Source: a virus | DNA length: 42,679 nt | Virus record (IMG/VR): IMGVR_UViG_3300048588_000379 | Span: 1-42,679 of that record | Reading direction: 5' to 3' (one strand) | Part shown: in pieces, positions 943 to 42,679 of the stretch | How positions within the stretch are numbered: position 1 is the first letter of the stretch | Layout of the letters: every line of letters starts with the position of its first letter | Translations under genes and position numbers: made by a program | Notes under the pieces: generated by a model | Databases searched by the model: none | What the model saw: only the letters and a program-made list of their open reading frames with translations | Told to the model about the DNA's origin: nothing

Positions 943-1368
943 TTAGTCCTCGTGCGCGATGCCGGATTCGAACAGTTCCTGCGCGTGTTTGAGATACTTG
1001 AACTCGAACACCTGAACGGTATCGCCGTCGGAATCGACCTGAACGACCACCCACCGATCCTCGTCGTATTCGGGTCGCGTGTATCGCTTGGGCGCGGCAT
1101 CCTGCTCCGGTGGGGTCATGCCCGTCTTGCGACGGTAGAACTCCACCGCAAGGTCGTATGTGTCGAAGCTGTGGCGGTCGGACGTGGAATCGGTCGCGCG
1201 GTGCATGTAGGACTCCACCACCGTCCACCGTCCCGCTTGGGACAGGAACGGATGGGAGAAAACTTTGGCATCCGGATCACCGAACCCGAACGGCAATAGT
1301 TTATGCTGATGCGGGAGCGGTGAATCCAGCGTAGATCGGTCGAGGCGTTGGGGGAGGGAGGTGGTCAT
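943..1368 (-). CDS. Hypothetical protein, 141 aa
   Basis: Unrecognised soluble protein. The N-terminus is basic and unordered-looking. The C-terminal half holds a compact aromatic and acidic segment (DEDRWVVVQVD ... VFEFKYLKHAQELFES) that looks like a small alpha/beta fold. It starts with ATG overlapping the stop of the preceding gene by one base (TAATG-type junction at 1366-1370) and stops 2 bp before the helicase start, so it is co-translated with the helicase in the same operon. No motif allows a functional call. Confidence 0.75.
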   Translation of the reverse strand: MTTSLPQRLDRSTLDSPLPHQHKLLPFGFGDPDAKVFSHPFLSQAGRWTVVESYMHRATDSTSDRHSFDTYDLAVEFYRRKTGMTPPEQDAAPKRYTRPEYDEDRWVVVQVDSDGDTVQVFEFKYLKHAQELFESGIAHED

Positions 1369-37325: not shown

Positions 37326-37352
37326 AAAAAAAGCCACGTCTTAGGTGGCTTT
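37326..37352 (-). terminator. Terminator of the RNA operon
   Basis: Minus-strand stem AAAGCCAC / GTGGCTTT with a seven-base loop (CTAAGAC), followed by a T run. It ends the leftward tmRNA/tRNA transcript just before the promoter of the next operon. Confidence 0.88.
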
Positions 37353-37500
37353 GGATGCGCGGGTCGAAACAACACGCCAATGGTGAATAGTCCCGTCGCA
37401 TCAAGGTGTCCCGCCTCCGTCGTAATGGGCTACAATGTCGGGAGGCGGGTCGCTCCGCATATGCCGCGGAGCTAGGTTCCGAAAGCCTTTGGAGCGTTCG
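37353..37500 (-). ncRNA. Unassigned structured RNA downstream of tRNA-Met
   Basis: No good reading frame. Two strong hairpins: GCTCCGC/GCGGAGC (37452-37472) and CCCGCCTCC/GGAGGCGGG (37410-37449), nine uninterrupted pairs around a 22-nt inner part. It lies between the last tRNA and the terminator of the same transcript. It could be a small RNA, a processing signal or a degraded tRNA gene; no family recognised. Confidence 0.5.
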
Positions 37501-37572
37501 TGGCGGGGGCAGGAATCGAACCTGCGATCTCAGGATTATGAGTCCTGCGAACTACCACTATTCCACCCCGCG
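37501..37572 (-). tRNA. tRNA-Met(CAU), initiator-like
   Basis: Minus strand: acceptor CGCGGGG with CCCCGCC, D-arm GAAT/GTTC, anticodon stem CAGGA/TCCTG around CTCATAA, T-arm GCAGG-TTCGATT-CCTGC, A73, CCA not encoded. The first pair (1:72) is C.C, i.e. unpaired, and the D-stem has A11:U24, both traits of bacterial initiator tRNA; two of the three G-C pairs of the initiator anticodon stem are present. An Ile(CAU, lysidine) identity is the other possibility. Confidence 0.88.
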
Positions 37573-37593: not shown

Positions 37594-37680
37594 CGGAAGG
37601 CAGTGGGATCGAACCACAAACGGTTGCCCGTTCGCAATGTTTAGCAAACAAGCCCGACTACCGTAGCCGGATTACCTTCC
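37594..37680 (-). tRNA. tRNA-Ser(GCU)
   Basis: Minus strand: acceptor GGAAGG/CCTTCC, anticodon GCU in TGTTTGCTAAACA, a long variable arm with the stem AACGG-GCAA-CCGTT, T-arm GTGGTTCGATCCCAC. A long variable arm and the GCU anticodon define Ser (AGY codons). The anticodon stem has weak outer pairs. CCA is not encoded. Confidence 0.87.
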
Positions 37681-37684
37681 AAGC

Positions 37685-37767
37685 GGAAGCGGGGAGAATC
37701 GAACTCCCGAACCCCTTGGGGCCAGCTGTTTTCAAGACAGTGTCCTCGTCCATGCCGGACCACTTCC
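37685..37767 (-). tRNA. tRNA-Ser(UGA)
   Basis: Minus strand: acceptor GGAAGTG/CGCTTCC, D-arm GTCC/GGAC, anticodon stem CTGT/ACAG with loop CTTGAAA (anticodon UGA), variable arm GGCCCCAAGGGGTT, T-arm GGGAG-TTCGATT-CTCCC. Reads UCA and wobble codons. Only 4 bp from the neighbouring tRNA-Ser(GCU), so the two are cut from one transcript. Confidence 0.92.
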
Positions 37768-37879
37768 AATGAGACAAAGAACAAAAATGGCGGGCTACTA
37801 ACTGAGGGCCAATTCAGTCTTCACCCGTCGAAAGAGCCACCCTGAGAACGCATCGTTGAGAGGCGGGACGGCTTTGCTG
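37768..37879 (-). other. Spacer between tmRNA and tRNA-Ser(UGA)
   Basis: About 110 bp inside the RNA operon without an obvious tRNA fold. It has GC-rich complementary patches near both ends (GCCGTCCCGCC and AGTAGCCCGCC on the minus strand) but no cloverleaf. May hold processing sites for the tmRNA 3' end. Confidence 0.4.
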
Positions 37880-38182
37880 TGGAGGTGGTGGGAGTTGAAC
37901 CCACGTCCGAATGCTCGTCAAAAACAATACTACTTACGGCAATAGCGTTTTGAAGGGTCGCCACCCATCTGATCTCCACCACCGTCATTTTACAGATGCC
38001 GGAAACTGGTTTGCGGTAATTCTGTTCCTACCGCGATCTGATTCAGACCGCTACCGCAAGGCGCGACGCCGAAGCGCCGATGTGACCGATAACTTTGTTG
38101 TCGATTACGTTGTGTCGCGTTCTTTCACGCCGTCATGCCGGATTGTATCCGCCGGATTCATCCGTCGAAACCCGTCACCCCC
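37880..38182 (-). ncRNA. ssrA: Transfer-messenger RNA (phage ssrA), about 303 nt
   Basis: Rescues stalled ribosomes. The 5' end GGGGGTGACGGGTTTCGACG and 3' end GGACGTGGGTTCAACTCCCA ending CCACCTCCA are diagnostic; 5' GGGGGTG pairs with 3' CACCTCC to form the acceptor stem, and GTGGG-TTCAACT-CCCAC is the T-arm. CCA is not encoded. The tag frame, read after GTAATC (the usual position just before the resume codon), is DNKVIGHIGASASRLAVAV with TGA at 38043-38045. At about 303 nt it is shorter than most bacterial tmRNAs. Confidence 0.92.
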
Positions 38183-38295: not shown

Positions 38296-40893
38296 TCAAT
38301 CCATGCAATACGTCATCGGTATCGCGACGCCACGTTGGAGCAACCCGCCACCAAACCGGATGGGGTCGGTCTTGCGCGCGCCTTCGATGCGACCAAGGAT
38401 CTTCGCGTGTCCGTTCGCCCACGGCGTCCGGTCCAATGTCCGGCGAATCCAGTCGGAATTGTTTGAGACCACGACATACCCCTCCACCGTTTTAAGCCCG
38501 TGGCGCGCGAGCCTGGTGTTCGCCACATCCGATCCGATGCCGTCATCGATGCGCAGTCGCGCGGATATCTGCACGAGTTCACCGATCGTGCGTTCGACCA
38601 TGTTGTACCCCTGCTCGACGCGGATGACCTGCTCAAGAAGGAAATTGAGCAGCATGTCCTCGTCGCGCTGTTCGTCCAACCCGCGCTCCTCGCTCCAATC
38701 CTGCTTACGAATCCACTCCACCGCGTTGTCGTAGGATATGCGCTTGTCCGAATACAGCGAGTACGCGCCCGCGAGAAGGGTTCCGATCTGGTCGCCGGTT
38801 CTCTGGTAGTTCAATTCCGCGCCCGCCGCCGCCGCGAATGTGCGAGCGTTGTCCAATATGATAGGCAGGATGCGAACCGTTCGGGCTTGCAAGCGCGCCG
38901 CGAACTCGTCGGTAAGGATGTCGTGATGCAGTTTTTGGAGCTTCGACCATCGCGCCTCGCGTTCGCCTTGGTCTAGAATGCGTTTGATGGCAAGCACGGA
39001 TATCCGCGTCTTGTCCGCTTGCTTGGCAGCTTGCACCGCGATCGACCCGAGCGCGAAGCACGATTTGATGTTGAAGTCCATCGCCCGTCCGCCCGCGCTA
39101 CCCTTGATGATTTTTCCACCGTCCGCCGATGACGCCGATCGCATGATGGCGAGGATTTTCTGAATCCGGTCGTTGTCTGATTTACCGTCGGTGTCGGCCT
39201 CATCGAACACGATCGGCATCGCGTCGTGCTTGAGCGTCTGCCGAAGCCCCGCCTCGGTCGTTTCGCCCTGAACCGCAAGGCCGGTATCGCCGAGCAACGG
39301 GCGCACGATGCGTTCCAAGATCCACGACTTGCCCGTTCCCGCGCCACCCGTGATCCAGATGTGCGGACGCCATTGGAGCGCGCCACACACAGGAGCCAAC
39401 ACGCACCACCCCGCAAGCAGGTAGGCGTTGACAGGGCGCTCCCAATTAACGAGCGCAAGCACGTCCATAAAGCGGTTGGCTTCGGTGTTTCCGAGGGGTT
39501 TTTCGGTGGGGAATTTCAGGGCGTTGGACTGCTCGTACATGAACCGCGATTGCAGTTGACCGAGGCGAACCATGGCGCCATCTGCAACCAAGTAATCGCC
39601 CGAATGCAGCACCACGCGTCCGTCGTCGATCCACGCCCCTCGACCACGTACGAGCGATTCGTCGAACATGCCTTGCATATAGGACTGAGACACGAGCCAG
39701 GATACGGCCATGTCCATATCCATGCCACGCTTGGACGGGAAATTCGATTCCCACCACGTCGGGTCTGGAACCAATGTCAATAGGTTGTTCTTGGACATCG
39801 ATCCCGCCGTGATCCGGATGATGGTCTTGGAGCGGTTGACGTAGAAGCAGAACGATTGGGATATCTCTGTTTTTTCGAATCCCAGGAACTTGAACATCCC
39901 ATTCTCGATTCCCGAAGGTTCGACCTTCGGTGGCAGGGGCGGATTGGATGTGACCTTGTAATTCGGTGATGGAACGGTTTTGATCTGATTGCCCTTGGTG
40001 CGCACGTAGGCCAGCGCCATATCCGTCGTCCAATCGTCGTCGGCGATGTCCCATCCCTTGGGTGTTCCAACGGGTGGCACGACGTATCGAACGACGCACC
40101 CGTTGGCCGAAAGATGATCCCCGATCCATGCGACGGCCTTGATGCCGGCCTCATCGTTATCCGGCCACAGCACAACTTTGCGACCGTACACCGGCGACCA
40201 GTCCACATGCGCCACGCCGTCGGTTCCACCCTGCCACGACACGCACACGAGGTCGGGGAACAACTTGCTCGCCGCGTCGCATGATTTCTCGCCCTCGGTG
40301 ATCATCACCGTGGCGGTCGCATTGGCGCGCAGTTTCGGCATGCCGTAGATCGGCCTTGGTTTCGGGAATCCCGCCCACGCCCATTGTTGGCGTCCGTTTT
40401 TCTCGACGTATGTTTGCGGAAACACCTGTTTGCCACCATTTGGCTCATTGAACCGCACGGTGTATCCTATCAGCGCGCCGTCAAGATCGCGGTACTCCCA
40501 ACGCTTGGCGAACTGAAGGTCTGATTTCTTATCCGGTGGACGTGGCGCGTCAGCGGGTACGGGGATGATGGCGGATGATTTCGCCGGTTCGGATTTGCTC
40601 ACCACGACCGGCGACGGTTTGAACGTTCCGGTTTTGCCGTCAAGGTAGTCCACGGCCTTGAGGAAATCCATGCCACCGAGTTTGAGGAACTCCAGCGCGT
40701 CCCCACCCGCCCCGCAAGCGAAGCACTTGAATATCTGTTTGCCCTGACTCACCGACAGCGACGCCTTGGTGTCGTTGTGGAACGGGCATATGCCGACGTG
40801 TTCTGCTCCCTTGCGCTTAAGGCTCACTTCGCGCGATATCACGTCAAGGATGTCGATTCGGGAAAGCAGGGCGTCGGTGTCGATTTTGGACAT
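38296..40893 (-). CDS. DNA primase-helicase, 865 aa
   Basis: Bifunctional replication enzyme. The N-terminal CHC2 zinc finger has C36, H39, C57 and C60 (GICPFHNDTK ... FKCFACGAGG). A Toprim domain follows with MITEGEKSCDAA (198-209) and VLWPDNDEAG (241-250). The C-terminal ATPase has Walker A ITGGAGTGKSW (514-524) and Walker B IVFDEADTDG (561-570), of the DUF927-like helicase type. It synthesises primers and unwinds the fork. ATG at 40893; stop followed by the RNA operon. Largest gene in the window. Confidence 0.93.
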   Translation of the reverse strand: MSKIDTDALLSRIDILDVISREVSLKRKGAEHVGICPFHNDTKASLSVSQGKQIFKCFACGAGGDALEFLKLGGMDFLKAVDYLDGKTGTFKPSPVVVSKSEPAKSSAIIPVPADAPRPPDKKSDLQFAKRWEYRDLDGALIGYTVRFNEPNGGKQVFPQTYVEKNGRQQWAWAGFPKPRPIYGMPKLRANATATVMITEGEKSCDAASKLFPDLVCVSWQGGTDGVAHVDWSPVYGRKVVLWPDNDEAGIKAVAWIGDHLSANGCVVRYVVPPVGTPKGWDIADDDWTTDMALAYVRTKGNQIKTVPSPNYKVTSNPPLPPKVEPSGIENGMFKFLGFEKTEISQSFCFYVNRSKTIIRITAGSMSKNNLLTLVPDPTWWESNFPSKRGMDMDMAVSWLVSQSYMQGMFDESLVRGRGAWIDDGRVVLHSGDYLVADGAMVRLGQLQSRFMYEQSNALKFPTEKPLGNTEANRFMDVLALVNWERPVNAYLLAGWCVLAPVCGALQWRPHIWITGGAGTGKSWILERIVRPLLGDTGLAVQGETTEAGLRQTLKHDAMPIVFDEADTDGKSDNDRIQKILAIMRSASSADGGKIIKGSAGGRAMDFNIKSCFALGSIAVQAAKQADKTRISVLAIKRILDQGEREARWSKLQKLHHDILTDEFAARLQARTVRILPIILDNARTFAAAAGAELNYQRTGDQIGTLLAGAYSLYSDKRISYDNAVEWIRKQDWSEERGLDEQRDEDMLLNFLLEQVIRVEQGYNMVERTIGELVQISARLRIDDGIGSDVANTRLARHGLKTVEGYVVVSNNSDWIRRTLDRTPWANGHAKILGRIEGARKTDPIRFGGGLLQRGVAIPMTYCMD

Positions 40894-42095: not shown

Positions 42096-42679
42096 CCCGT
42101 TTTTTTCTGCCGTGATAGGTATATGTGGTCCGCCCATCCGGGTTTGTACCCGCGACGCCGAGCCAGTTCCTTCAGATCCTCCAACGACTGCGCCGCGCGT
42201 TGCTCGCGGAACCTGTCCGCGCGGATGCGCTCTTTGTCCGCCTCGGTTATTTCGCGCAGTTCGCCGTCAACCTGATCCACTTCGCGACCTTCCGACACAT
42301 ATTCGTGCTTGCAGACCGGACATACCGGCGCAGGTTCGTGTATCGCGTAGCATGACGGGCATTGCTTGACGAGGGTCTTGGGTTCGTCCGATTTCTTACC
42401 CCGTTTCTTGGGTTCGGCCTCCAGCGACCAGTCCCGATGCTCGTCCGGCAATCCGTGGCGCATCACGTTACCCACATGGTCCAATATGATCGCGTGTGGT
42501 TTGCCCGGCGCCGGACGCAAAGCCCTGCCTACCTGCTGAAGGTACATACCAAGCGACTCGGTGGGACGAAGCAGGACCGCGCAAGCGACGGCGGGAATGT
42601 CCGTGCCTTCGCTTATGAGTTCGCACGATGTCACGCCATCCACGGTGCCGTTACCGAGGCCGTCAAGGATGCGTGTGCG
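42092..42679 (-). CDS. SF2 helicase, C-terminal part with zinc-ribbon tail
   Basis: C-terminal portion of the helicase that begins at 940 on the other side of the join; the last 127 bases duplicate the window start. It holds motif V (SEGTDIPA) and motif VI (QQVGRALRP, the arginine finger). A four-cysteine zinc-ribbon-like segment (CPSC...CPVC) follows, then a basic helical tail ending SRQKKTG. The 3' end overlaps the -33 element of the promoter of the next leftward operon (42066-42095). Four cysteines after the helicase core are common in phage helicases and may help bind nucleic acid; that part is inference. Confidence 0.93.
   Translation of the reverse strand, partial: RTRILDGLGNGTVDGVTSCELISEGTDIPAVACAVLLRPTESLGMYLQQVGRALRPAPGKPHAIILDHVGNVMRHGLPDEHRDWSLEAEPKKRGKKSDEPKTLVKQCPSCYAIHEPAPVCPVCKHEYVSEGREVDQVDGELREITEADKERIRADRFREQRAAQSLEDLKELARRRGYKPGWADHIYLSRQKKTG
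42553..42679. repeat. Terminal direct repeat, right copy (assembly overlap)
   Basis: Second copy of the 127-bp perfect repeat found at bases 1-127. Removing one copy restores one uninterrupted helicase gene of 467 codons including the stop. See the left copy for interpretation. Confidence 0.95.

Follow-up and report, generated by a model that had tools for sequence, protein, structure and literature searches.

Phage tmRNAs are already a known gene type. The mycobacteriophage Momo (species Bixzunavirus Bxz1, KR080196), a 155-kb phage with 34 tRNAs and a Mycobacterium host (PMC4472892), encodes a one-piece tmRNA of 435 nt within a tRNA cluster, and its tag, ATDTDATVTDAEIEAFFAEEAAALV, is long (25 aa) and valine-ended (ALV). 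Bacillus phage G (JN638751), with a genome of 498 kb, encodes a one-piece tmRNA of 309 nt and the non-LAA tag AKLNITNNELQVA, which ends in VA (LQVA). tmRNA genes are also carried by Bradyrhizobium elkanii phages, which are reported to be virulent (PMC12656738). In the literature on phage tmRNA tags we found no study of tag function.

The locus described here is a further member of this gene type, and lies in a viral DNA of 42,679 nt (IMG/VR record IMGVR_UViG_3300048588_000379; the whole stretch is called the window below). Like Momo, the window has a one-piece tmRNA within a tRNA cluster and a long tag that ends in valine, and like phage G it encodes a one-piece tmRNA with a non-LAA tag. It differs from Momo in genome size, tRNA number, host and tmRNA length, from phage G in genome size, host and tag end, and from the B. 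elkanii phages in having tRNAs. The Momo tmRNA was absent from the records similar to the window tmRNA, among the matches listed. Chromosomal Bacteroidota tmRNAs commonly have a resume codon of the GAN/GGN type and mostly do not encode the CCA, as in the window, whereas their tags are 9-10 aa long and end in LAA or MAA, and the RNAs are 347-403 nt long. The V-terminal tag in a compact genome of about 42.6 kb, probably that of a Bacteroidota phage, adds an independent case, and it makes testable whether a phage gains from ribosome rescue itself or from an altered fate of the tagged proteins.

A one-piece tmRNA gene in a phage genome

The initial annotation had placed a phage-encoded tmRNA with diagnostic, properly pairing ends at 37880-38182, giving no strand. 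ARAGORN called a one-piece tmRNA (ssrA) at 37879-38182 on the minus strand, with the tag DNKVIGHIGASASRLAVAV followed by a stop, and Rfam model RF00023 covered the gene end to end (37877-38182, minus, model positions 1-374) with a score of 71.5 bits (E 5e-26) against a gathering cut-off of 47 bits. No rival Rfam family reached a comparable score over the locus. The two independent methods agree, and the gene lies among phage genes and not in a host flank, confirming that the locus is a genuine phage-encoded one-piece tmRNA gene. A permuted-tmRNA reading scored 24.5 bits, under the cut-off of 47, and was dropped. The features of the RNA are as follows.

37880..38182, minus strand: one-piece tmRNA (ssrA), 303 nt to the discriminator base (ARAGORN; RF00023, 71.5 bits)
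38176..38182, minus strand: 5' strand of the acceptor stem, GGGGGUG, 7/7 pairs with 37881-37887, including G3-U70
38043..38102, minus strand: tag frame DNKVIGHIGASASRLAVAV and UGA stop, with the resume codon GAC after GUAAUC (ARAGORN, Rfam alignment, resume profile)
37992..38034, minus strand: candidate H-type pseudoknot 3' of the tag, GCGGUAG/UUACCGC with ACAGA/UCUGU, unproven (-12.3 kcal/mol)
37888..37904, minus strand: T arm GUGGG-UUCAACU-CCCAC, intact (direct reading; full posterior in the Rfam alignment)
37881..37887, minus strand: 3' strand of the acceptor stem, CACCUCC, with A73 at 37880

The ends pair as had been claimed: all seven pairs of the 7-bp acceptor form, and both the G3-U70 pair and A73, as expected of a substrate of alanyl-tRNA synthetase, are present. 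Position 37880 is the discriminator base A73, and the ARAGORN call ends one base further (304 nt). The 3' CCA is not encoded; ACAG stands in the gene at that place. The minimum free energy of the RNA was -109.5 kcal/mol, with a z-score of -2.2 to -2.4 relative to shuffled sequences.

The RNA had also been described as compact. This was overstated, since its 304 nt fall inside the range of 243-412 nt found for one-piece tmRNAs on viral contigs, and its size is ordinary. The accompanying doubt about pseudoknots, of which a tmRNA typically has four, still stands. PK1, sought in the tmRNA with stems of at least 4 bp, was not found, the best downstream candidate (-12.3 kcal/mol) was matched by 9 of 60 shuffles, and the Rfam posterior was low across the downstream pseudoknot region. 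Function of the tmRNA may possibly be impaired, because its RF00023 score is low compared with the 106-200 bits of chromosomal Bacteroidota tmRNAs.

The window begins and ends with an exact 127-bp direct repeat (1-127 and 42553-42679), and the siphophage-like record is therefore most likely a complete genome of about 42.6 kb (about 42.55 kb given the repeat). It encodes a primase, terminase subunits, a portal, a ClpP-like head protease, a major head protein and a tape measure, together with tail, endolysin-like and methyltransferase genes. Neither an smpB match nor a tyrosine integrase match was found in a search of the phage genome. Inspection for Shine-Dalgarno sequences, made with no control set, showed weak 4-mers ahead of 11 of 32 starts. 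The tmRNA is flanked by the primase gene and by tRNA genes, in the following order.

38296..40893, minus strand: DNA primase, directly upstream of the tmRNA (PHROG 35358, E 1.8e-126; Pfam CHC2 zinc finger)
37880..38182, minus strand: tmRNA
37683..37768, minus strand: tRNA-Ser(UGA), downstream of the tmRNA (ARAGORN)
37595..37680, minus strand: tRNA-Ser(GCU), missed by ARAGORN (Rfam match; anticodon GCU read directly)
37500..37572, minus strand: tRNA-Met(CAU) (ARAGORN; Rfam tRNA, 66 bits)
37330..37352, minus strand: hairpin and T tract resembling an intrinsic terminator, 3' of the RNA genes (the region has 4 sites of this kind, against 2.1 expected by chance)

The Rfam match of the tRNA-Ser(GCU) gene was to the type II tRNA-Sec model, at 35.5 bits, under the gathering score of that model.

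The tag frame and its ending

In the 304-nt transcript called by ARAGORN, positions 81-140 hold the tag frame with its UGA stop, and the Rfam alignment places the consensus resume site on UAAUC-GAC with high posterior. We also built a profile of the resume site from 100 other tmRNAs (33 viral and 67 Bacteroidota), with labels taken from ARAGORN. With the combined 18-nt profile, GAC at position 81 ranked first among all positions of the transcript, as it did with the Bacteroidota-only profile. The 18-nt profile of the 33 viral tmRNAs put GCA at position 169 first and GAC at 81 second, and profiles limited to 6-8 upstream nucleotides discriminated poorly. Because resume positions in the training set span 59-103, a range that includes 81 and leaves out 169, GCA was excluded as the resume codon; further grounds were its place inside a candidate stem and the lysine at the end of its tag, ANQFPASVK.

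The RNA has a resume site and an open tag frame with a stop, as expected of a tmRNA, and the tag ends in LAVAV instead of the C-terminal Ala-Ala (LAA, MAA or VAA) of the standard ssrA degron. Both the tag sequence and the non-LAA ending given by the initial annotation were recovered by ARAGORN, and the Rfam alignment has the same resume site. The observation was correct, and the interpretation built on it was partly supported.

We compared the ending with those of other tmRNA tags. Ala-Ala ends 67 of the tags among 69 Bacteroidota tmRNAs, and the remaining two look like miscalls. Among 34 distinct one-piece tags on viral contigs, the window counted, 29 end in Ala-Ala and the five exceptions end in VAV (the window), LSA, YAG, MVA and AVA. 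With the two miscalls left out, exceptions amount to 5/34 viral and 0/67 Bacteroidota tags (Fisher P 0.0035), in a comparison that ignores phylogeny; the viral contigs probably derive from hosts in more than one phylum, and part of them may be host DNA. A Terminase_6N match was present in only 8 of 36 tmRNA-bearing viral records checked, and smpB was absent from 34 of the 36 contigs. The ending is uncommon yet closely precedented, because of the other viral exceptions, the ALV of Momo and the LQVA of phage G; its description as unusual holds insofar as LAVAV is a real non-Ala-Ala ending, but not in the sense of being unprecedented. The remark that phage tmRNAs are uncommon went too far, since the matches listed in an IMG/VR scan for tmRNA were mostly tmRNA genes, some of them perhaps on host contigs.

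Other tmRNAs met in the survey varied in structure and tag. A 100.9-kb viral contig (L039/G018) with a terminase has a tmRNA at 70542-70862, a tag ending in TVLSA and its own smpB (47701-48129). Two viral contigs (L158 and L187) have one-piece tmRNAs with 31-aa tags ending in LLAA, and two others of about 30 kb (L068 and L077) have a permuted tmRNA with the V-terminal tag ANKIVAFSRSKVATLV. On a 54-kb viral contig (L007, about 1056-1200, minus strand) the 3' and 5' segments of a tmRNA stand in permuted (two-piece) order. The annotated tmRNA of Chryseobacterium phage MA9V-3 (L205, 2941-3299) was called permuted by ARAGORN, with the tag GNVIDINKYVAKLEVAA, and lies below the Rfam cut-off. On a 146-kb viral contig (L004, 4599-4955) a tmRNA of 86 bits has no ARAGORN tag, and one open frame after AAAAGUC encodes 44 aa ending in LAATT.

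Function of the tmRNA and fate of tagged proteins

We consider it likely, from the features of the gene, that this is an ordinary tmRNA of trans-translation whose main function would be ribosome rescue. The tmRNA would be co-transcribed with the few tRNA genes beside it, undergo tRNA-like processing, receive its CCA from a host enzyme, and then be charged with alanine by the host AlaRS. As the search found no SmpB in the phage, that of the host would be loaded onto it. During infection it would release ribosomes that stall at broken or degraded mRNAs, and append the tag (A)DNKVIGHIGASASRLAVAV. The initial annotation had proposed that tagged proteins might escape the host proteases, a proposal we could not support: the V-terminal ssrA variant AAV remains a substrate of ClpXP, although its degradation is slower than that of LAA (PMC9382460). 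The last two alanines of ssrA matter most for ClpXP, and altering them increases KM and leaves Vmax little affected (PMC7652416). Because AAV is slower than LAA and changes in the last two alanines raise KM, LAVAV is more likely to be a degron, weaker or read in another way, than a cap that protects the protein. Since the tag retains a small apolar C-terminus, tagged proteins would most likely still be degraded, with changed affinity and possibly with less dependence on host adaptors. The phage would probably gain from the recycling of ribosomes, not from protection of the tagged proteins.

The main rival to ribosome rescue is that the altered tag is itself the purpose of the gene, such that the phage tmRNA replaces or competes with that of the host and, its tag being a poor degron, lets truncated phage proteins or selected host proteins survive. 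Non-Ala-Ala tags do recur in phages (Momo, phage G and several viral contigs), against Ala-Ala in all 67 validly called Bacteroidota tags, and the Fisher comparison above favors such a role. However, proteolysis still acts on the known V-terminal variant (PMC9382460), 29 of the 34 one-piece viral tags retain Ala-Ala, the viral set may include host DNA, and it is not obvious what a phage would gain from truncated proteins, so we regard this as improbable. The endings LAVAV (window), ALV (Momo), LQVA (phage G) and ATLV, VLSA, AYAG and RMVA (viral contigs) could also mean that phage tmRNAs have repeatedly left the Ala-Ala degron, retaining rescue but, during infection, weakening the proteolysis that the tag directs or passing it to another protease; this is a tentative idea that we think unlikely though conceivable.

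A tmRNA in decay, or one retained as an inhibitor or SmpB sink, would account for the low Rfam score, the failure to find PK1 and the unproven state of the other pseudoknots, and the TLD-only RNA of phage DS6A has been proposed to play such a role (PMC4131195). The acceptor, T arm, resume context, open tag frame and stop are nevertheless all intact here, making this explanation quite doubtful. Many phage records hold only about 33 nt of the tmRNA 3' end, some of them annotated as attP, and the locus might by that precedent be left over from integration into the tmRNA gene of a host (an attP with part of ssrA). Here, by contrast, the full-length gene is present, in a tRNA cluster beside the primase and in a genome with no tyrosine integrase match, and an integration remnant, largely ruled out on these grounds, is very improbable.

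Relatives and host

The same tmRNA gene is present on a 17-kb contig with 99.98% identity to the window; this near-identical contig was the only relative found with the gene, and none was found at intermediate distance. Terminase relatives (45-51% identical), several of which are fragments, showed no tmRNA above the cut-off, and no additional relative came out of scans with the tmRNA 3' end or the major head protein. When the tmRNA was searched at the DNA level against 395 Bacteroidota genomes, almost all matches fell in the conserved 3' end, so that they name no host. The terminase is closest to those of Cellulophaga and Croceibacter phages and of an Allomuricauda contig, whereas the primase is closest to those of Bordetella and Synechococcus phages. 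Tags starting with D or G occur in 42 of 69 Bacteroidota tmRNAs, in which the CCA is mostly unencoded, as in the window. From the terminase and these tmRNA features we infer that the host is probably a member of the Bacteroidota. One Bacteroidota genome (G127, C1:772761-773172, L259) has, besides its chromosomal tmRNA, a second tmRNA-like match of 49.3 bits, with no ARAGORN call.
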